Shown: in pieces, positions 892 to 16,575 of the stretch
Layout: every line of letters begins with the position of its first letter
Numbering within the stretch: the stretch's first letter is position 1
From: an uncultured Blastococcus sp.
GTDB taxonomy: Bacteria; Actinomycetota; Actinomycetes; Mycobacteriales; Geodermatophilaceae
Direction: 5' to 3'
NCBI GenBank assembly: GCA_902805535.1
Contig: CADCTN010000079.1
Coordinates: 1-42,603, forward strand
Length of the DNA stretch: 42,603 nt
Translations under genes and position numbers: made by a program
Notes under the pieces: generated by a model
What the model saw: the letters and a program-made list of their open reading frames with translations, nothing else
Told to the model about the DNA's origin: nothing
Database searches by the model: none

Positions 892-1767
892 TCAGCTCTT
901 GCGCAGGAGCCGGCCCAGCATCCCGCCCGCGCCGCCGACGGTGCGCGCGGCGAGCTGAAGGATGGGCCCGCCGGGGATGCCCGGCACCGCCTGCACGATC
1001 GGGGCCAGCCGCAACAGGCCGCCGACGTCGTGGACCTTGAGCCTGCGCAGGGCCACCGCGGGCACCGGGTTGATCCGGCCCGAGGCGGCATCCAGCAGGA
1101 GCTCCGCCGAACCTTCCACCGCGGGCCCGTCGATCCGGCCGGGGGACTCCTGCCGCACCGTCCACCCGCCGCTCGCGGACACGAAGGTCCAGCCGCCGTC
1201 AGGGGTGGCGAGCGTGACCGCCCCGTCGATGGACAGCGACGCGGCCAGCGCACCGGTCACATCGGTCAGCGCGGCGAGGCCGGACTGCAGGACCTCCGGC
1301 GGCGGGGGAGCCGCACCGCAGGAGACGAGGTCCAGGCCGTGGACGGCGAGCTCGTAGGCCTGCCCGAGGACGACGCTCAGCAGCGGGATGCGGCCCACGA
1401 CCGACACGGTGAGGGCGGTGTCGAGCTCCTCGGGCTCGTCGGCCAGGAAACGGGCGGTGGCCTCGCGGTTGCGGCGCAGGCCGGCGAGGACCTCCGCCCG
1501 GGACGCATCGCGGTGCGCGGCGGTGACCCGGGCGTTGGTGGCGTCGACGTCCGGCACCGTCCCCGTGCCACCGGCGCGCGCGGAGGCGATCAGGCCGGCC
1601 ATGGCGGTGTGGTCGTCCCAGCAGCCCAGGTGCACGCAGATCTCGTGTGCCCGCCAGCCCCCGAGCCGGGAGGCGTGGGTCAGGTCGACTGACCCGGCGC
1701 GCTCGATGAACGCGTCCCACGCGCCCAGGACCCGGTCTGCGACCTCGTCCCGGCCGGCGTCCGCCAT
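892..1767 (-). CDS. DinB/MDMPI-type enzyme (maleylpyruvate isomerase family)
   Basis: The protein is 291 aa from ATG 1767. The frame stays open upstream to 2040, but that part is Arg/Pro-rich, runs under the divergent gene and does not look coding. The N-terminal ~150 residues resemble the mycothiol-dependent maleylpyruvate isomerase N-domain (DinB-like four-helix bundle): the HEICVHLGCWDDH segment and the later AYELAVHGLDLV segment supply the expected metal-binding histidines. The C-terminal ~100 residues are compatible with the SCP2-like or MDMPI C-terminal domain (GAVTLATPDGGWTF). Actinobacteria have many paralogues, few characterised; some use mycothiol as thiol cofactor. The gene stands alone and diverges from the cyclase gene. 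The family call is fairly safe; the substrate is unknown. Confidence 0.75.
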   Translation of the reverse strand: MADAGRDEVADRVLGAWDAFIERAGSVDLTHASRLGGWRAHEICVHLGCWDDHTAMAGLIASARAGGTGTVPDVDATNARVTAAHRDASRAEVLAGLRRNREATARFLADEPEELDTALTVSVVGRIPLLSVVLGQAYELAVHGLDLVSCGAAPPPPEVLQSGLAALTDVTGALAASLSIDGAVTLATPDGGWTFVSASGGWTVRQESPGRIDGPAVEGSAELLLDAASGRINPVPAVALRRLKVHDVGGLLRLAPIVQAVPGIPGGPILQLAARTVGGAGGMLGRLLRKS

Positions 1768-1930
1768 GCCCTGGTGTCCTCGCACGCCTGCCGCCCTACC
1801 CCTGCGGCGCCCGGGCAGACGTCGAACCCGGAGGCGGGGGAGTGGCGCTCGCCACGGCCCCGTGCTGGACGCCCCCCTGAGGGGTGACATCGAGGTCAAG
1901 GACCGGCGCCGTCGGGCCGATCGCCGGACT

Positions 1931-3070
1931 GTGACCGTTCGACTCCCTGGAGACCGCCGCGGGGCCGACGCGCCCGCCGCTCCCAGGTCCGGCTTCTTCT
2001 CCAGGATAGGTGCCGCCCTGCTCGCCGGCCTGTACCGCACGCTGGCCGAGGACGCCGATCGGGCCGCCTACTGGGTGCGCCACGTGCGCAACGGTGTGCT
2101 GCTGACCGAGATCGCCGCGTGGTCGACCGTCGGATACACGTTCCTCACCGAGACCCCGGCCCGCCACCACCCCGTGATCCTGGCGCTCGCGGGCGTTGTG
2201 ATCGTCGCCGTTCCCGGGCTCCTCCTGCTGCCGCTGCACGAGATGATGCGGGACTCCCGCGGGCCGACGCTGTTCTACCTGTGGAGCTGCACGACGACCG
2301 TCGTGGTCATCATCGGCACGCGACTGGACGGGGGCGCGTCGAGCCCGCTCGACGGTCTGCTCTTCGTGACGCTGACCTTCACGGCGGTGGCCTACTCCCC
2401 GTACGGCGTGGTGGCCACGGGCGTCATGATGACCAGCAGCTACTTCCTCTTCGTCGAACTGCCCGGCGTGAGCACCTCGGGACTGTTCTTCCTCACGTTG
2501 CTCGGCTCGATCACCATGATCTGCGCCCTGGCCTCCGCCAACTCCTGGGCGGCCCACGACCGGCAGGTCATGCTCATCCGCACTCAGGAGACCCTCGCGG
2601 CCACGGATCCGCTCACCGGCATCCCCAACCGGCGGGCCTTCATGGACCGGGTGGCGAGTGCGGTGCGCGACGCGGCCCGCGACCAGCGGACCGCCGTCTG
2701 CCTCGTCGACCTCGACGGGTTCAAGGCCGTCAACGACGCCGGCGGGCACGCGGCCGGCGACGCCATCCTGAAGGCCGTCGGCATCGCCCTGGGAGGGGCG
2801 GTCCGGGAGACCGACACCGTCGCCCGGCTGGGCGGCGACGAGTTCGCCGTCCTCGCCGACGCCTCGGCGGGCACCTCGGGCGAGATGCTCGCCGAGCGCC
2901 TCCGGGCCGCCGTCGCCCACGCCGGGGGCGTGGCAGGGGTGACCGCCAGCGTCGGGGTGGCCGAGGTCGAGCCCGGGGACGACGTGGAGGCGCTCATGCA
3001 CCGCGCGGACGCCGCCATGTACCGGTCCAAGACCGCCGGCGGGAACCGGGTCAGCAGCCTCGCGTACTGA
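1931..3070 (+). CDS. Membrane-anchored diguanylate cyclase (GGDEF domain)
   Basis: From GTG 1931 the protein is 379 aa; another in-frame GTG at 1862 is possible, and neither has a strong ribosome site. Residues ~55-205 hold about six hydrophobic segments forming a membrane sensor domain I cannot assign to a named MASE family. From ~residue 223 a GGDEF domain follows (DPLTGIPNRRAF opening). The catalytic GGDEF motif is intact at residues 301-305, and RETD at 292-295 sits exactly five residues before it, matching the RxxD inhibitory I-site. The enzyme should make cyclic di-GMP from two GTP at the membrane, with product feedback. There is no EAL domain. The signal sensed is unknown. Confidence 0.9.
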   Translation: MTVRLPGDRRGADAPAAPRSGFFSRIGAALLAGLYRTLAEDADRAAYWVRHVRNGVLLTEIAAWSTVGYTFLTETPARHHPVILALAGVVIVAVPGLLLLPLHEMMRDSRGPTLFYLWSCTTTVVVIIGTRLDGGASSPLDGLLFVTLTFTAVAYSPYGVVATGVMMTSSYFLFVELPGVSTSGLFFLTLLGSITMICALASANSWAAHDRQVMLIRTQETLAATDPLTGIPNRRAFMDRVASAVRDAARDQRTAVCLVDLDGFKAVNDAGGHAAGDAILKAVGIALGGAVRETDTVARLGGDEFAVLADASAGTSGEMLAERLRAAVAHAGGVAGVTASVGVAEVEPGDDVEALMHRADAAMYRSKTAGGNRVSSLAY

Positions 3071-3447: not shown

Positions 3448-3948
3448 GTGCAGCGACGGTCTACCCAGGGTGTCGTCTTCGTGCACGCGTGCCCGAAGGC
3501 GCTCTGCCAGCACGTCGAGTGGGCGCTCGAGCGCGTCGTCGGCGCGCCGGTCTCCCTGTCGTGGGCTGACCAGCCCGCGGCACACGGTTCCTACCGTGCC
3601 GAGGTGGCCTGGACGGGTGCGCCCGGTACCGCCGCTCGGTTGGTCGCTGCCCTCCGGGCGTGGCCGATGCTGCGCTTCGAGGTCACCGAGGAAGCCAGTC
3701 ACGGCAACGACGGCGAGCGGATGTCCTACGTGCCCGGTCACGGGGTCTTCCGCGCGCCGACCAGCGCCAACGGCGACATCATGATCAGCGAGCAGCAGCT
3801 CCGGCAGCTCGCCGCGACGGCCTCGTCGGCCGAGGCCTTCCGGCACGGCGTCGACGAGCTCCTGGGCGCGGCGTGGGACTCCGACCTCGAGATCTACCGC
3901 CACGCCGGCGACGGCAGCCCGGTCACCTGGCTGCACCAGGTCGTCTGA
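3448..3948 (+). CDS. DUF3145 domain-containing protein
   Basis: 166 aa, starting at GTG 3448 with GGAG seven bases upstream. The opening RSTQGVVFVHACPKALCQHVEWA and the central MSYVPGHGVFRA segment are characteristic of actinobacterial DUF3145 proteins, which as far as I recall often lie beside the FAS-II/accD block, as here. There is no signal peptide or membrane segment, so the protein is probably cytosolic; the function is unknown. It is convergent with accD, separated by a strong hairpin. Confidence 0.85.
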   Translation: MQRRSTQGVVFVHACPKALCQHVEWALERVVGAPVSLSWADQPAAHGSYRAEVAWTGAPGTAARLVAALRAWPMLRFEVTEEASHGNDGERMSYVPGHGVFRAPTSANGDIMISEQQLRQLAATASSAEAFRHGVDELLGAAWDSDLEIYRHAGDGSPVTWLHQVV

Positions 3949-4094: not shown

Positions 4095-5507
4095 TCAGAG
4101 CGGGATGTTCCCGTGGGCCCCACGCCCGGGAGGAACGGCGGCGAGCGCGGCGACCAGCCTGCGCCTGGTCTGCGACGGCTCCACCACCTCGTCCACGACG
4201 CCGATCTGCAGCGCCCGGTTCACGCCGCCGGCGATCCGCTCGTGCTCCTCGGCGAGCTGCGCGTGCAGCGCCTCGCGCTCGCCCGGCGGGACGGCGGCCA
4301 GCTTCTTGCGGTGCAGGATGCCGACCGCGGCCTTCGCGCCCATGACGGCGACCTCGGCACCGGGCCAGGCGAACACCGCGGTGGCCCCCAGGGATCGCGC
4401 GTTCATCGCGATGTACGCGCCGCCGAAGGACTTGCGGGTCACCAGCGTCACCCGCGGGACCACCGCCTCGGCGAAGGCGTGCAGCAGCTTCGCCCCGCGC
4501 CGCACCACGCCGTCCCACTCCTGGCCGACACCGGGCAGGTAGCCGGGCACGTCGACGAGCACGACCAGCGGCACCCCGAAGGCGTCGCACATGCGCACGA
4601 ACCGGGCGGCCTTCTCCGCCGAGGCGGAGTCCAGGCACCCGCCCAGGCGCAGCGGGTTGTTGGCGATCACCCCCACGGTCCGTCCGGCCAGCCGCCCGAG
4701 GGTGGTGACGACGTTCGGCGCGAAGCGCGGGTGCATCTCCAGGCCGGGGCCGTCGAGCAGGGTGGCAATGAGCGGCTTCACGTCGTAGGCGCGCTGCTTC
4801 TGCTCGGGCAGCAGTGCGCCCAGGTCGACGTCCGCCTCGTTCTCGACCGACGCGAAGGTGCCCTGGGCTGCCAGCAGGTCCACCGCCATGCGGGCGGTCT
4901 CCAGCGCCGCCGGCTCGGAGTCGGTGACGACGTGGACGACGCCGCTGCGCCGGCCGTGCGTGTCGGGGCCGCCCAGCTTCTCCTGGTCGACGTCCTCACC
5001 GGTCACCGAGCGGACGACGTCGGGACCGGTGACGAAGACGCGACCGGCCGGCCCCATGATCACCAGGTCGGTCAGCGCCGGTCCGTAGGCCGCGCCGCCG
5101 GCGGCCGGGCCCAGGACGACGGAGATCTGCGGGATCCGGCCCGAGGCCCGGACCATCGCCGCGAACACCTCACCGACCGCGTGCAGGGCGGTGACGCCCT
5201 CGGCCAGCCGGGCGCCGCCGGAGTGCCAGATGCCGACCGAGGGCACCCGCTCGCGCAGCGAGGTGTCGATGGCGTCGACGATGTGCCGGCAGCCGTCGAC
5301 GCCCATGGCGCCGCCCATCACCGTCGGATCGGTGCAGAAGGCGACCACCGGGCTGCCGTTCACGGTGCCGCGCGCGGCGAGGACGCCGGAGGTGTCGCGG
5401 GCGGCGAGGAGCTGCACCGACCCCGGGTCGAAGAACCGCTGGAGGCGGTCCTCGGGGTCGCGCGGGTCGGGGGTCGGCAGGGTGGGGGCGGCCTGCACGG
5501 TTGTCAC
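4095..5507 (-). CDS. accD: Acyl-CoA carboxylase carboxyltransferase (beta) subunit, AccD6-like
   Basis: 470 aa, with a GAGGAGAGCTC ribosome site just upstream of ATG 5507. The protein has the two crotonase-fold carboxyltransferase halves. The first has the oxyanion-type glycine cluster in LGPAAGGAAYGPALTD and the GPDVVRSVTGEDV segment; the second has TRKSFGGAYIAMNA and FAWPGAEVAVMG. It transfers the carboxyl group from biotin on a separate AccA/AccB-type alpha subunit to acetyl-CoA and/or propionyl-CoA, giving malonyl-CoA or methylmalonyl-CoA. Its place as last gene of the fab cluster matches mycobacterial accD6, the malonyl-CoA supplier for FAS-II. The biotinylated subunit is not in this window. 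Substrate preference cannot be read from sequence alone. Confidence 0.92.
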   Translation of the reverse strand: MTTVQAAPTLPTPDPRDPEDRLQRFFDPGSVQLLAARDTSGVLAARGTVNGSPVVAFCTDPTVMGGAMGVDGCRHIVDAIDTSLRERVPSVGIWHSGGARLAEGVTALHAVGEVFAAMVRASGRIPQISVVLGPAAGGAAYGPALTDLVIMGPAGRVFVTGPDVVRSVTGEDVDQEKLGGPDTHGRRSGVVHVVTDSEPAALETARMAVDLLAAQGTFASVENEADVDLGALLPEQKQRAYDVKPLIATLLDGPGLEMHPRFAPNVVTTLGRLAGRTVGVIANNPLRLGGCLDSASAEKAARFVRMCDAFGVPLVVLVDVPGYLPGVGQEWDGVVRRGAKLLHAFAEAVVPRVTLVTRKSFGGAYIAMNARSLGATAVFAWPGAEVAVMGAKAAVGILHRKKLAAVPPGEREALHAQLAEEHERIAGGVNRALQIGVVDEVVEPSQTRRRLVAALAAVPPGRGAHGNIPL

Positions 5508-5554: not shown

Positions 5555-5596
5555 TCTAGGCCGGGTACATCTAGGCCGGGTACTTCTAGGCCGTGG
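5555..5596. repeat. 15-bp tandem repeat spanning the fabF stop codon
   Basis: The unit TCTAGGCCGGGTACA occurs at 5555-5569, again at 5570-5584 with the last base changed, and a partial third copy starts at 5585. Each copy holds CTA, which is TAG on the minus strand. Because the unit length is a multiple of three, fabF is followed by two further in-frame TAG stops. Confidence 0.85.
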
Positions 5597-6827
5597 TGAA
5601 GACGAGCGCGATGTTGTGGCCGCCGAAGCCGAAGGAGTCGTTGACGGCTGCCGTGAGGGTGGTGCGCCGGGGCTCGTGGCGCACGATGTCGAGCGCCTGG
5701 ACGGCCGCGTCGTCGTCCGGGTTGTCCAGGTTGGCCGTCGCCGGCACCACCTGCTCGCGCAGCGCCAGGATGGTGAAGATCGACTCCAGGGCGCCGGCGG
5801 CGCCCAGCAGGTGGCCGGTCTGGCTCTTCGTGGCGCTCACCAGGACGTGGTCGCCCAGCGAGGAGCGGATCGCGGCCGCCTCGGCCGTGTCGCCGACGGG
5901 GGTCGACGTGGCGTGGGCGTTCACGTGCCCGATGTCGGCGGTGCTGAGCCCGGCGTCCCGGATCGCGGCGGTGATCGCCCGGCCGGCGCCCTCGCCCTCG
6001 GGGTGGGGGGCGACGAGGTCGTAGCCGTCGGCGGTCGCGCCGGCGCCGGCCAGGCGCGCGTGGATGCGGGCCCCCCGGGCCTTCGCCGCGTCGGCCCGCT
6101 CGAGCACGATGCAGGCCGCGCCCTCGCCGAGCACGAAACCGTCGCGGGCCTTGTCGAACGGGCGGGAGGCGCGCTCGGGCTCGTCGTTGCGGGTGGACAT
6201 CGCGCGCATCGCGGCGAACCCGGCCATGGGCAGCGGGTGCACGCAGGCCTCGGTCCCGCCGACGACGACGACGTCCGCGCGGTCGAAGCGCAGCAGGTCC
6301 AGCCCCCAGCGGATCGCCTCGGCGCCGGACGCGCAGGCGCTGACCGGGGCGTGCACGCCGCCCTTGGCGCCGATGGCCAGGCCGACGGCCGCGGCGGGCC
6401 CGTTGGGCATGAGCATCGGGATGGTGAAGGGGGAGACCCGCTTGGGGCCCTTCTCCTCCAGGACGTCGTCCTGGCCGAGCAGGGTGAGCGCGCCACCGAT
6501 GCCGGTGCCGATGACGACGGCGACCCGCTCGGCGGGCACGCCGGCGTCGGCGGCCCCCGAGTCCCGCCACGCCTCCTCGGCGGCGATCACGGCCACCTGC
6601 TGGCTGCGGTCCAGGCGCCGGGCGCGCACCCGGTCGATCTGGTCCGCCGGGTCGGTGGCCAGCCGGGCCACCAGCTGGGCGGGGTAGTCCTTGATCCAGT
6701 CGTCGGTGATCCGGCTGACCCCCGACCGCCCGGCGAGCAGCGCGTCCCAGGTGCTGGCGACGTCGCCGCCCAGAGGCGTGGTGGCACCGAGTCCGGTGAC
6801 GACGACGTCGGTGACGGACGTGCTCAT
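5586..6827 (-). CDS. fabF: Beta-ketoacyl-ACP synthase II (FabF/KasA type)
   Basis: 413 aa, normal for the family, with an AGGAGG ribosome site a few bases before ATG 6827. The thiolase-fold catalytic triad is intact: nucleophile Cys165 in APVSACASGAE, His305 in HVNAHATSTP and His339 in KSQTGHLLGAAG. The enzyme condenses malonyl-ACP with growing acyl-ACP in the cytosolic type II fatty acid cycle. It lies 44 bp downstream of acpP and is co-oriented with fabH, fabD and accD. Only one KAS-II gene is present, unlike the kasA-kasB pair of mycobacteria. Confidence 0.96.
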   Translation of the reverse strand: MSTSVTDVVVTGLGATTPLGGDVASTWDALLAGRSGVSRITDDWIKDYPAQLVARLATDPADQIDRVRARRLDRSQQVAVIAAEEAWRDSGAADAGVPAERVAVVIGTGIGGALTLLGQDDVLEEKGPKRVSPFTIPMLMPNGPAAAVGLAIGAKGGVHAPVSACASGAEAIRWGLDLLRFDRADVVVVGGTEACVHPLPMAGFAAMRAMSTRNDEPERASRPFDKARDGFVLGEGAACIVLERADAAKARGARIHARLAGAGATADGYDLVAPHPEGEGAGRAITAAIRDAGLSTADIGHVNAHATSTPVGDTAEAAAIRSSLGDHVLVSATKSQTGHLLGAAGALESIFTILALREQVVPATANLDNPDDDAAVQALDIVRHEPRRTTLTAAVNDSFGFGGHNIALVFTTA

Positions 6828-6871: not shown

Positions 6872-7114
6872 TTACTGGTTCTTCTCGATGTAGCTGATCG
6901 CGTCGCCGACGGTCTTGATGTTGCCGAGCTCGTCGTCGGGGATGGCGACACCGAACTTGTCCTCGACGGCGGTGGCGATCTCCACCATCGACAGCGAGTC
7001 GACATCGAGGTCGTCGGTGAACGACTTCTCGGGGGTGGCGTCGGCCGGGGTCACACCGGCGACCTCCTCCAGGATTTCGGCGATACCGGCCTGGATGTCT
7101 GCGGTGCTGGGCAC
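6872..7114 (-). CDS. acpP: Acyl carrier protein
   Basis: 80 aa from GTG 7114, preceded by AGAGAGGAC. The protein is acidic, with the DSLS motif placing the 4'-phosphopantetheine attachment at Ser40 at the start of helix II. It ends close to the canonical ACP length and lacks the long tail of mycobacterial AcpM. It carries acyl intermediates for FabD, FabH and FabF, which flank it. Confidence 0.96.
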   Translation of the reverse strand: MPSTADIQAGIAEILEEVAGVTPADATPEKSFTDDLDVDSLSMVEIATAVEDKFGVAIPDDELGNIKTVGDAISYIEKNQ

Positions 7115-7199: not shown

Positions 7200-8168
7200 T
7201 CAGGGCAGGACCAGGACCTGGCCGGCGAAGGTGAGCCCCGCGCCGTAGCCGAGCACGAGGGCGAGGTCGCCGCTCTTCGCCTCGCCGCTCTCCAGCAGCG
7301 CCGACAGCGCCAGCGGCACGGACGCCGACGACGTGTTGCCCGAGCGCACGATGTCGCGGGCGATGACCGTCCGTTCCGGCAGATTCAGCCGCTTGGCCAT
7401 GAGCTCGATGATGCGGAGGTTGGCCTGGTGCGGGGCGAAGACGTCGATGTCCTCGGGCCCCACGCCTGCGCGACGCATCGCCTCGACGAGGGTGTCGGTG
7501 AGCTTCGAGGTGGCCCAGCGGTACACCGCCTGGCCCGCCATGCTCATGCCCGTCTCACCCTGCGGGATGGCGATGGCCTCGTGCAGGTCGCCGTCGCTGC
7601 CCCACACGACCGGGCCGATCGCGGGCTCATCGGACGGCCCGACCACGGCAGCGCCGGCGCCGTCGGCGAAGATGATCGCGGTCGACCGGTCGGTCAGGTC
7701 GGTGTAGTCGGTCAGCCGTTCACCGCCGACGACCAGGGCGTTGCGCGCCGATCCCGAACGGATCGCGTCGGCCGCCGCACTGAGCGCATAGCACCAGCCG
7801 GCGCACCCGGCGTTGACGTCGAACGCGCCCGGTCGTGGCACGCCGATCTGGTGGGCGATGCGCGGAGCCAGACCCGGGATGGCCTTCGGCGGGCTGGTCG
7901 TGGCCAGCAGCACGAGGTCGATGTCGCTGGCATCGAGGCCGCTGGCTGCCAGCGCCTTGCCGCCCGCGGCGACCGACATCTCCACGAGCGTCTCGTCGGG
8001 CTCGGCCCAGCGGCGCTCGGCGATGCCGACGCGTGACTGGATCCACTCGTCGTTGGTGTCCATCATCTGCGCCAACTCGTCGTTGGTGACCCGCCGACGA
8101 GGGCGGTAGCTCCCGATGCCCAGGATGCGGGCGCCGGGGACGCCCTGCGGCAGCTGCAGTCCGGTCAT
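7200..8168 (-). CDS. fabH: Beta-ketoacyl-ACP synthase III
   Basis: 322 aa, with ATG 8168 overlapping the fabD stop as ATGA. The Cys-His-Asn triad is visible: Cys122 in NAGCAGWCYAL, His247 in FAPHQANLRI and Asn278 in RSGNTSSASVPLAL. The enzyme starts fatty acid synthesis by condensing an acyl-CoA with malonyl-ACP; actinobacterial members often prefer branched-chain primers, but that cannot be decided here. Overlap with fabD implies translational coupling. Confidence 0.95.
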   Translation of the reverse strand: MTGLQLPQGVPGARILGIGSYRPRRRVTNDELAQMMDTNDEWIQSRVGIAERRWAEPDETLVEMSVAAGGKALAASGLDASDIDLVLLATTSPPKAIPGLAPRIAHQIGVPRPGAFDVNAGCAGWCYALSAAADAIRSGSARNALVVGGERLTDYTDLTDRSTAIIFADGAGAAVVGPSDEPAIGPVVWGSDGDLHEAIAIPQGETGMSMAGQAVYRWATSKLTDTLVEAMRRAGVGPEDIDVFAPHQANLRIIELMAKRLNLPERTVIARDIVRSGNTSSASVPLALSALLESGEAKSGDLALVLGYGAGLTFAGQVLVLP

Positions 8169-9382
8169 ACCGAGACCTCCGGGTAGAGACGGGCGATGGG
8201 ATCACCGGCGTCCACGAGGTCGCCCTCGTGCACGAGCCACTCGGCCAGTACCCCGTCGTAGCCGGCGGAGACATGGACCTCCTCGCGGCGGCTCCGGATG
8301 AGGCCGAGGGGGGTGCCGGCCGGCAGGTGGCTGCCCTCGGCCACCTCGGCCGGCGAGACCGTGCCGCGCAGGGGGGAGACGACGACCCGCCAGTCGGGCA
8401 GGTGCTCGGCCTCGGGGCGGCCGCGCTCGGCCCCGATGAGCTCGCGAGCCCGGTCCAGGTCGCCGGGACCGGTCAACGCCACGATCTCGACCGCCTCGCC
8501 GTTGACCCGGTGGCCCTTCCACTCGCGCTTGGCCAGGCCGGCCAGGGCGCCGGCGGGCGGCAGCTCGATCACCGCGCTGACGCCGAGCTCGCGCATCGTC
8601 GCCAGGCAGGCGTCGAAGCGCACCGGGCTGGTGACCTGGCTGATCAGCCGGGCCAGCGCCTGGGCGCCGGTGTCGACCGCGTGGCCGTCGGCGTTGGACA
8701 GCAGCAGGCGGCTGGGCTCGGCCGGTCCGAGCCCGCCGACCAGCCCCTCGAGCTCGGTCCGCGCGGTGGACATGTACTCGGTGTGGAACGCGCCGGCGAC
8801 CGAGAGCGGCATGATCCGCGCCTTCGCGGGCGGGTCGGCCTTGAGCGCCGCCAGGCCGTCCAGCGCTCCGGCGGCCACGATCTGCCCGGCGCCGTTCATG
8901 TTGGCCGGGGTGAGCCCGTGCTGCGCGATCGCGGCGAGCACCTCGTCGGGGTCGCCGCCCAGGACGGCGGACATGCCGGTGGGCGTCTGGGCGCAGGCGG
9001 CGGCCATCGCCCGGCCGCGGACGGCGGTCAGTGCGATCGCCGCCTCGATGGAGAGGACTCCGGCCAGCGCGGCGGCGGTCAGCTCGCCCACGCTGTGCCC
9101 GGTGATGACGACGTCGCGCCCGGCGTGCGGGGCGTGCGACACCGGGCCGGGCAGGCCGCCGAGCTCGCGGGCCACGAACAGGCTCATCGCGACGACCAGC
9201 GGCTGGGTCACCGCGGTGTCCTTGATGGCCTCGGCATCGCCGGTGGTGCCGAGGGTCAGCAGGTCCGCGTCGGCGATGGCGCCGGCCCAGCGGAAGAAGG
9301 ACTCCGCGCCGGGCAGGTCGAGCCAGTCGGTGAGCATTCCGGGTTTCTGCGCGCCCTGTCCGGGGGCGAGGACGGCCAGCAC
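8165..9382 (-). CDS. fabD: ACP S-malonyltransferase with C-terminal biotinyl-like domain
   Basis: 405 aa from GTG 9382, which makes the conserved opening LAVLAPGQGAQ the N-terminus. The frame is open to 9478, and an upstream GTG at 9430 is possible; neither start has an ideally spaced ribosome site. Residues 1-315 are the acyltransferase: Ser97 in the GHSVG elbow and His200 in GAFHTEY. It moves malonyl from CoA to ACP. Residues ~333-402 look like a biotinyl/lipoyl swivel domain: VVSPLRGTVSPAEVAEG, then VSAGYDGVLAEWLVHEGDLVDAGDPIARL. At the hairpin where biotin domains have the MKM lysine this one reads SRREE, with Arg366 in place of the acceptor. Typical FabD is ~310 aa, so the extra domain is a fusion. 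Its role is unknown; docking with the carboxylase is a guess. Confidence 0.93.
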   Translation of the reverse strand: MLAVLAPGQGAQKPGMLTDWLDLPGAESFFRWAGAIADADLLTLGTTGDAEAIKDTAVTQPLVVAMSLFVARELGGLPGPVSHAPHAGRDVVITGHSVGELTAAALAGVLSIEAAIALTAVRGRAMAAACAQTPTGMSAVLGGDPDEVLAAIAQHGLTPANMNGAGQIVAAGALDGLAALKADPPAKARIMPLSVAGAFHTEYMSTARTELEGLVGGLGPAEPSRLLLSNADGHAVDTGAQALARLISQVTSPVRFDACLATMRELGVSAVIELPPAGALAGLAKREWKGHRVNGEAVEIVALTGPGDLDRARELIGAERGRPEAEHLPDWRVVVSPLRGTVSPAEVAEGSHLPAGTPLGLIRSRREEVHVSAGYDGVLAEWLVHEGDLVDAGDPIARLYPEVSV

Positions 9383-9554: not shown

Positions 9555-10736
9555 TCAGCGCCAGGGCGAGCGTTCGCGGTCCAGCTCGGCGAGGGCCAGG
9601 GCCACCTGCAGGGTCCAGCTGCCGCGCGGATCGGTCGGCGAGACGCCGGTGAGGTCGGCGGCCCGCTTGAGCCGGTACCGGACGGTGTTGGGGTGCACGA
9701 AGATGGCGCGGGCGCTCGCCTCCAGGTTCCCGCCGCTGGCGAGCACCGCGCGCACCGTCTCCAGCACCTCGCGACCCGCGGCCTGCAGGGGAGCGGCGAC
9801 GCGCTCGTACAGCGCGGTCCGGGCGAGCGGGTCGCCGTCCAGCGCCCGTTCGGCCAGCAGGGCGTCGGCCCGCACCGGCCGGGGCGCGTCGGGCCAGGCG
9901 CGGGCAGCGCGCAGCCCGGCCAGCGCCGCGGCCGCGGACTCACCGGCCCGGCCCAGTCCGTCGACCACGGGGCCGGTCACCACCGGGCCGTCCCCGAACT
10001 CCTCGCTCACCCGGTCGGCCGCCTCCGCCAGCTCCTCCACGCGGCCCAGGACCACCACCAGCTGGTCGGCGTGCACGCCGACCAGGACCTCGCTGCCCAG
10101 CGAGCGCGCGGTCCGGCGCACGGTGGCGTGCGGGTCGCCGGAGCCGGTGGGGGTCGCCCCGACCAGCACGAGCACCGGCGTGCTGGTGGCCCAGCCCAGC
10201 GCGGCGGCCCGGCCGGACAGCTCCTCGGAGCGCTCGCCGCGCACCAGGGCGTCGACGACCAGTGCCTCCAGCCGCGCGTCCCAGGCCCCCCGGGTCTCGG
10301 CGAAGCTGGCGTAGACGTGCGCGGTCGCGAAGGCCACCTCGCGGCTGAACTGCAGGACGGCCAGGTGCAGGGCGTCCTCGTCGCCCGGCTCGGCCACCGA
10401 GGACACGTGGTCCTCCAGCACGTCCACGGTCACCTGGATGAGGTCGACGGTCTGCTTCAGGGCGACGACGCGGACCAGCTCGCGCGGCGCCGCGCCGAAC
10501 ACGTCGCCGGTGAGGCGGGGCGGCTTCCCGGGGTTGCGGCACCACTCCACCAGGGAGGCGATCCCGGCCTGGGCCACGAGGGTCACCCAGGAGCGGCGGT
10601 CGGCCGGCATGGCCCGGAACCAGGAGAGCTGCTCGTCCATGCGGGCGACCGCGCGCGTCGCGAGCGCGCCCGAGGAGCGCTCCAGCCGCCGGATCGTGGC
10701 CTCGGACGGCGGGCGGTCGCTCACCCGGCTCATCAC
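9555..10736 (-). CDS. fasR: PucR/CdaR-type transcriptional regulator, likely FasR
   Basis: 393 aa from GTG 10736 (ATG 10733 is equally possible). The C-terminal region around residues 335-385 has the PucR-type helix-turn-helix (NLEASARAIFVHPNTVRYRLKRAADLTG). The centre resembles a GGDEF-like regulatory domain, and the N-terminal half is the DUF/RsbRD-like helical region found in this family. In Streptomyces coelicolor the PucR-like FasR lies directly upstream of fabD-fabH-acpP-fabF and activates it; the same order here supports the name. It should not be confused with the TetR-family FasR of mycobacteria. The effector is unknown, with acyl-CoA or malonyl-CoA as candidates. A 170-bp spacer to fabD suggests a separate fabD promoter. 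Confidence 0.85.
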   Translation of the reverse strand: MMSRVSDRPPSEATIRRLERSSGALATRAVARMDEQLSWFRAMPADRRSWVTLVAQAGIASLVEWCRNPGKPPRLTGDVFGAAPRELVRVVALKQTVDLIQVTVDVLEDHVSSVAEPGDEDALHLAVLQFSREVAFATAHVYASFAETRGAWDARLEALVVDALVRGERSEELSGRAAALGWATSTPVLVLVGATPTGSGDPHATVRRTARSLGSEVLVGVHADQLVVVLGRVEELAEAADRVSEEFGDGPVVTGPVVDGLGRAGESAAAALAGLRAARAWPDAPRPVRADALLAERALDGDPLARTALYERVAAPLQAAGREVLETVRAVLASGGNLEASARAIFVHPNTVRYRLKRAADLTGVSPTDPRGSWTLQVALALAELDRERSPWR

Positions 10737-13332: not shown

Positions 13333-16152
<2,820 letters not shown>

Positions 16153-16256
16153 CCGTCCATGGTCTCCCGTCGAGCCCATGATCGTCACGCCTACCCGCGG
16201 GTTGTGTGCCGAGTCGCGTGTGCACGGCCCCTGGACGGCCTCTCGTCGCGCGGCGG

Positions 16257-16284
16257 TTGCGCCACGCGCGCCATGCCCTACGCT
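16257..16284 (+). promoter_or_regulatory. Putative sigma-70-type promoter for the DUF3052-ahpE unit
   Basis: TTGCGC at 16257-16262 and TACGCT at 16279-16284 with a 16-bp spacer fit actinobacterial housekeeping promoters. A start near 16291 would give a leader of about 285 nt before DUF3052. Confidence 0.4.
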
Positions 16285-16376
16285 TCCGCCAGCAGTGGCT
16301 CGGAACGAGCCCTGCACCGCACGACCGGCCGCAGTGGCCGGGCGGTGCGCCTGTCGGAGAGAACGAGAGGGGTGAC

Positions 16377-16481
16377 ATGACCAGGCAGCGGGGAAGCCTC
16401 CCGCCGGTCGTGTCCGCCGCATGCGCCCTCGTACCCGACGCCGTCGGCAGGACCCCCGGTTCGCCGGGCTCGGACGCGTGA
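16377..16481 (+). CDS. Possible 34-aa leader peptide
   Basis: ATG 16377 is preceded by GAGAGGGGTGAC, a strong ribosome site at good spacing, and opens a 34-codon frame starting [10 protein letters not shown]. The sequence resembles no family I know and is rich in Pro, Ser and Ala. It lies between the candidate promoter and DUF3052, so it could be a translated leader or chance. Confidence 0.3.
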
Positions 16482-16575
16482 CCGTGACGCGTCCCCGCGC
16501 GGGCGGCGGCCCGACAGGGCAGCATCCACCCCACGACCGGTCAGCAGCAGGCCACTCCATGGAGGATCAGCAGGA

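Follow-up and report, generated by a model that had tools for sequence, protein, structure and literature searches.

A biotin carrier-like domain fused to the malonyl-CoA:ACP transacylase FabD of Actinomycetes is retained in dependence on the AccD of the fatty acid synthesis cluster

Introduction

Why should a malonyl-CoA:ACP transacylase carry at its C-terminus a domain built like a biotin carrier that has no lysine to accept biotin? The question is raised by fabD in the DNA analyzed here (the window), a stretch of 42,603 nucleotides from an uncultured Blastococcus sp. (assembly GCA_902805535.1, contig CADCTN010000079.1), in which the gene lies in a type II fatty acid synthesis (FAS-II) cluster with accD. 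The FAS-II pathway is taught as a set of free, diffusible enzymes in which the carboxylase releases malonyl-CoA and FabD picks it up. A carrier-shaped FabD domain that depends on the carboxyltransferase, if true, would be a natural link between both steps. A literature search that covered titles and the beginnings of abstracts, with most subscription journals outside its scope, revealed neither a FabD fusion with a biotinyl-like domain nor a contact between FabD and AccD among the matches listed. The sequence-only reading of the window had proposed that FabD is fused to a biotinyl- or lipoyl-like domain devoid of the acceptor lysine, and that this domain may dock to the carboxylase or to the acyl carrier protein.

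Results

The fabD open reading frame (9382..8165, minus strand) begins with GTG and specifies 405 amino acids, which comprise a malonyl-CoA:ACP transacylase core (residues 1 to ~317) and the C-terminal biotinyl-like domain as judged by the reading frame, the TIGR00128 profile, sequence matches to FabD and an AlphaFold2 model. The core includes GHSVG (Ser97), AFHT (His200) and VRGR (Arg122), whose serine, histidine and arginine we take to be the catalytic motifs of FabD. TIGR00128 matched residues 3-286 with an E-value of 9.5e-48 and a score of 163.1 bits against a curated cut-off of 260.9, and the mdcH profile TIGR03131 gave 160.6 bits on the same protein, likewise below its cut-off. In a sequence search, the closest solved chains were FabDs: 1nm2 from S. 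coelicolor matched residues 2-317 (E 3.7e-79) and 2qc3 from M. tuberculosis residues 2-292 (E 4.8e-82). FabDs of known structure align no further than approximately residue 317. On this sequence evidence the gene is assigned as fabD, which fits its location with fabH, acpP and fabF, and the product is predicted to transfer malonyl groups from CoA to ACP. Its nearest named relatives are in Geodermatophilaceae, with 92% identity to Blastococcus litoris among the best 80 of 172 related loci.

In reading order, the cluster consists of a gene for a PucR-type regulator (9555..10736, minus strand; PF13556/PF17853), fabD, fabH (7200..8168, minus strand; PF08541/PF08545), which overlaps the fabD stop codon by four nucleotides (ATGA), acpP for an acyl carrier protein of 80 amino acids (6872..7114, minus strand; by frame translation with an assumed start codon and hand-counted coordinates), fabF (5586..6827, minus strand; PF00109/PF02801) and accD for a carboxyltransferase subunit (4095..5507, minus strand; PF01039, 406.8 bits). 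The last is one of four Carboxyl_trans matches genome-wide, and is the gene that tracks the FabD domain. A DUF3145 gene (3448..3948, plus strand; PF11343) is convergent with the cluster; this conserved neighbor and the regulator gene upstream of fabD were used as controls. Of 80 loci, 57 have a DUF3145 gene on the downstream side of fabD within 8.5 kb. The aceE gene for pyruvate dehydrogenase E1 (13333-16560, minus strand) is upstream of the cluster in the window and likewise in many of the 80 loci, a possible conserved link between the supply and use of acetyl-CoA. Elsewhere in the window, an open reading frame at 1388-3070 (plus strand) probably encodes a diguanylate cyclase, as its translation shows a GGDEF motif along with probable membrane-spanning stretches.

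The C-terminal extension of FabD was analyzed by profile searches and structure prediction. The biotinyl-like domain occupies residues ~330-402 (8177..8395, minus strand) and is preceded by a linker of residues ~318-329 (8396..8431, minus strand) that is predicted to be flexible. Pfam Biotin_lipoyl (PF00364) scored 31.0 bits on the C-terminal 76 amino acids (cut-off 22.1, E 2.3e-7) and 26 bits on the whole protein, which also is above the cut-off. The domain scored about equally, at 32.8 bits (cut-off 22.2), with HlyD_3 (PF13437), a family that shares the barrel fold. An AlphaFold2 model of the isolated domain, made with 35 sequences, had a pLDDT of 95.7 and a pTM of 0.81. The domain also was well predicted in the full-length model (43 sequences, mean pLDDT 86), in which pLDDT values fell below 50 at residues 321-329. 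The top 50 Foldseek rows all were biotin carboxyl carrier proteins (BCCPs) or biotin-dependent enzymes, with 2evb as the best match (TM 0.84, E 7.5e-6), and VIA-align superposed the model on 1bdo with a Z-score of 12.9 and an rmsd of 1.3 over 71 residues. Periplasmic adaptors followed closely behind (4l8j, Z 12.0). Thus, the fold by itself does not single out a BCCP, as periplasmic adaptors with the same barrel score almost as highly. The domain nevertheless is confidently modeled with the flattened beta-barrel of the biotin carrier, which upholds the proposal that FabD is fused to a biotinyl-like domain; a model devoid of this barrel would have spoken against the proposal.

The residues that replace the acceptor site were assessed from alignments. 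Arg365 and Arg366 (8285..8290, minus strand) are placed at the hairpin tip, with Arg366 at the position of the acceptor lysine. Arg366 is in register with the biotinylated lysine, as the spacing is the same as in the EAMKM domains of the same genome. Among five other Biotin_lipoyl matches in this genome, one begins at a contig end, and the four that are readable all retain the lysine (EAMKM, EAMKM, ESMKM and the lipoyl-type STDKV). Lysine did not occur in the acceptor column in any of 144 aligned homologues of the FabD domain, and the domain in the window has no lysine at all. Biotinylation at a shifted lysine was discarded on these grounds. The loss of the acceptor lysine and its replacement by Arg366 were both part of the earlier reading, and homologues that keep the lysine, which would have contradicted it, were absent from the 144. 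Arg366 does not vary among 43 aligned sequences close to that of the window. Strict invariance is confined to these relatives: the wider family also includes glutamine preceded by an arginine. In 128 sequences from genomes with AccD, the acceptor column is occupied by arginine (105), glutamine (19), serine (3) or threonine (1), and arginine is present at the tip, either in this column or as the preceding residue, in 127 of the 128. The tip arginine is missing from 2 of 11 fused proteins in genomes that lack AccD (G372 and G309).

The distribution of the fusion was examined in a collection of 219 genome entries. This was a non-random sample that combined the best 80 of 172 related loci with hand-picked places chosen to cover families and contrasts. 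The fusion occurs in at least one genome of 32 of the 48 numbered Actinomycetes families. In the family of the window (f1, Geodermatophilaceae), it is in one piece in 33 of 35 genomes. Several Streptomycetaceae among the best 80 of 172 loci also possess it, including Streptomyces sp. SCUT-3, Yinghuangia soli and Streptantibioticus ferralitis. In Actinomycetota outside the class Actinomycetes, a related FabD domain was detected in 14 genomes of four families. Thus, the survey of Actinobacteria that the sequence-only reading had suggested shows a fusion that is widespread and repeatedly lost. That the fusion is peculiar to this genome is ruled out by its wide occurrence in relatives. A search for relatives of the domain in viruses gave 26 pattern matches, none of which was confirmed.

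The domain has been lost many times, even inside one genus: 18 of 29 genomes of g20 (family f14) possess it and 11 do not. In three loci, L068 (Geodermatophilus sp. TF02-6), L189 and L194, the domain appears to have been deleted in frame, and its last strand persists as a scar (RELIDAGDPIARLYPE, GTPGQPLAPIGG). In two other Geodermatophilaceae, L070 and L071 (= G155), fabD is cut short and the domain is encoded by its own open reading frame of 82 codons (L070:6936-7181 and L071:6936-7181) that overlaps the fabD stop codon and precedes fabH. A frameshift due to sequencing error is an unlikely source of the separate frame, as these are different genomes and both have the GTGA overlap. Both retain AccD. 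Between L070 and L071, the domain had a dN/dS ratio of ~0.50 and FabD a ratio of 0.31; the domain in three pairs of fused relatives gave values of 0.17-0.37. As the domain is separately encoded in these two genomes, it is conceivable that it could also act in trans.

The presence of the domain was compared with that of AccD after six of the 219 entries with unclear AccD state and two duplicates were dropped. Some AccD states were coded from genome-wide scans (E <= 1e-120) instead of from the cluster, and a weak match in the unfused genome G377 was scored as present. On this coding, AccD was present in 128 of 139 genomes with the domain compared to 32 of 72 without it (11 and 40 genomes, respectively, lacked AccD). 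In 80 loci that were hand-chosen to span families and read with flanks of up to ~8 kb, the cluster included accD in 39 of 40 fused loci and in 16 of 40 unfused ones; two of these 40 unfused loci (L218 and L227) end too early to tell. The relationship was repeated inside families. In f1, 34 of 35 genomes have AccD (E <= 1e-120), and the sole genome without it (G147, identical with L068 and L199, that is, Geodermatophilus sp. TF02-6) is also the sole one in which the domain is deleted. Cluster AccD accompanies the fusion in 5 of 5 Streptomycetaceae loci, and is absent from both unfused loci of f29. In f2, AccD is present in 8 of 8 genomes in which the FabD match reaches the end, a set that includes G027 with a stop codon inside this match, and in 0 of 3 unfused genomes that were read. 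The corresponding values for fused and unfused genomes are 2 of 2 versus 0 of 2 in f12, and 2 of 2 versus 0 of 3 in f41. Genomes G089, at a contig end, and G032 were left out of these contrasts as their fusion state was not visible. In g20, AccD was found in 10 of 18 fused genomes and in none of the 11 unfused, a pattern that appears as if AccD was lost first and the domain afterwards. In AccD-less loci with enough flank, fabH, acpP and fabF still adjoin fabD.

Correlated evolution of the two traits was tested on a tree of the FabD core and FabF with 157 taxa, in which 12 of 66 Geodermatophilaceae were kept. Pagel's test favored a model in which the two traits evolve dependently over one in which they evolve independently (LR 49.6, p 4.5e-10). 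When gains were forbidden, the rate of domain loss was 15.1 per unit length without AccD and 0.69 with it, an ~22-fold difference (p 2.9e-11). The dependence of domain loss on AccD persisted when f14 was omitted (p 3.7e-8) and inside f14 alone (p 0.004). The reverse dependence of AccD loss on the domain, tested alone with gains forbidden, was weaker (p 0.009; p 0.71 inside f14). On 80 taxa with enough flank, the link between AccD and the domain yielded an LR of 39.0 (p 7e-8), whereas three control neighbors on the same taxa showed no link with the domain: DUF3145 (p 0.31), the PucR-type regulator (p 0.45) and AceE (p 0.08). In g20, in which the AccD-less tips form three lineages of the tree, the ratio of domain to core evolutionary rate was 3.6 on AccD-less branches, 1.45 on AccD-bearing branches and 3.1 on branches with mixed descendants. 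Four AccD columns emerged as candidates for marking domain-bearing lineages and were set aside, as just 11 AccDs were from unfused loci and the window itself departs at the best column. Overall, these analyses show that in this non-random sample retention of the domain depends on the AccD of the FAS cluster, as an evolutionary dependence rather than a contact.

Other observations fit this relationship less simply. The 32 genomes that have AccD without the domain comprise families f3, f4, f7, f25 and f28, parts of f13, f26, f27 and f34, and single genomes of f8, f9, f14, f32 and f40. Thus, with 32 of 72 domain-less genomes keeping AccD, AccD does not need the domain. The domain occurs without AccD in the 11 of 139 genomes noted above, one of which (G214) has an intact domain and arginine loop, and G284 combines a partly deleted domain with AccD. 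Outside the class, the hairpin is shortened in L160-L169 and L173, and neither tip position is arginine in L170-L172. Across 11.6-12.3 kb downstream, no match to the AccD of the window was found in L355, L357, L358 and L359; L356 has a 27% match. As the out-of-class domains lack the arginine tip and four of the five larger loci are without an AccD match, AccD is hardly the original or only partner of the domain. The fusion may predate the link with AccD, and the arginine-tipped hairpin may characterize the Actinomycetes branch.

Discussion

The tendency of the domain to be lost or to decay with the loss of AccD suggests that the domain links FabD and the carboxylase. Two partners, the carboxylase and ACP, were envisaged at the outset, and the evolutionary evidence favors the former, specifically the AccD of the cluster. 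The explanation that is somewhat favored is that a biotin-less BCCP mimic docks FabD onto the AccD-containing carboxylase and probably hands over malonyl-CoA. In the proposed mechanism, FabD would bear this mimic on a flexible tether, and the mimic would be unable to accept biotin because arginine (or glutamine) replaces the acceptor lysine. Its docking site would lie on the acetyl-CoA carboxylase that includes AccD, at or close to where a real BCCP visits the carboxyltransferase, and the arginine-bearing tip of the hairpin would be the main contact. In real BCCPs, it is the hairpin tip that meets the carboxyltransferase. FabD thereby would be held where malonyl-CoA arises, such that malonyl groups may be passed to ACP locally along a shortened path. 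A more general form of this idea, put forward tentatively and with somewhat less than even confidence, is that much of the Actinomycetes builds a FabD-carboxylase assembly in which the mimic on FabD plugs into AccD through its arginine-tipped hairpin, that malonyl-CoA is made and used in one complex, and that the mimic is kept with AccD and tends to disappear after AccD is lost.

The main rival shares the partner and reverses the effect. The domain may be a decoy that competes with biotinylated BCCP by occupying its site on AccD, in which case carboxylase activity would be limited by how much FabD is present or by its state. A BCCP-shaped domain with arginine in place of biotinyl-lysine plausibly could compete in this manner, and regulation of the carboxylase would produce an equal evolutionary trace, with which all of the evidence that ties the domain to AccD fits as well. 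However, no result favors inhibition above tethering and permanent fusion to a housekeeping enzyme would be an unusual vehicle for a brake, and this explanation is considered unlikely. Contact with AccD is dispensed with altogether if the loss of AccD rewires fatty acid synthesis, by another carboxylase or altered regulation, and thereby makes dispensable a domain that serves FabD or a contact with ACP. Correlation does not equate to contact, the 11 genomes that retain the domain without AccD accord with an indirect link of this kind, as does the occurrence of the domain without a cluster AccD outside the class. Yet fabH, acpP and fabF stay beside fabD in the AccD-less loci with enough flank, the three other neighbors are devoid of such a correlation, and the tip that contacts the carboxyltransferase in real BCCPs bears arginine in all but one of the AccD-bearing sequences. 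Thus, an indirect link is judged unlikely.

Two further explanations concern the domain itself. A functionless evolutionary leftover retained by chance would fit the repeated losses, some of them natural deletions that left scars, and the dN/dS of ~0.5 in the split-out domain; this is made highly improbable by the presence of the domain in 32 of the 48 numbered families, by 16 columns that do not vary across 35 aligned domains and by the higher rate in g20 without AccD. That the domain is a working carrier with biotin, lipoate or some other modification on a different residue accords with its Pfam Biotin_lipoyl score, but is barely credible when all 144 homologues are without lysine in the acceptor column and the domain of the window is lysine-free. 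Docking of FabD onto the carboxylase is preferred among these readings. It would make channeling or feedback at the committed step testable through one domain of 75 residues or through one arginine, and close relatives offer natural comparisons in the form of deletions, split genes and genomes without AccD. The split gene of L070 and L071 would be useful for testing action in trans. The proposed coupling also is relevant to the supply of malonyl-CoA for actinomycete polyketides.

Among known systems, the locus resembles that of AccD6 in the FAS-II locus (AccA3-AccD6), as the AccD of the window is encoded in a similar locus that extends from fabD to accD. AccA3-AccD6 of M. tuberculosis is reported to supply malonyl-CoA for fatty acid synthesis and to elute as a ~700 kDa dodecamer (PMC5407890). 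In contrast to the window, three sampled f7 loci have cluster AccD and a FabD without the domain, and the proposed coupling therefore would be absent there. Compared with the FAS-II FabD proteins of known structure (1nm2 and 2qc3), the core and the serine, histidine and arginine motifs are common to both, whereas those chains comprise 317 and 303 residues and the FabD of the window has ~88 more, which are the linker and the BCCP-like domain. The domain in turn is similar in fold, size and flexible tether to BCCP and biotinyl domains, including E. coli 1bdo, P. horikoshii 2evb and those of the M. smegmatis carboxylases (9yx0-9yx4). It differs from them in that arginine, or glutamine in some homologues, takes the place of the acceptor lysine, and in that it is joined to FabD and not to biotin carboxylase.
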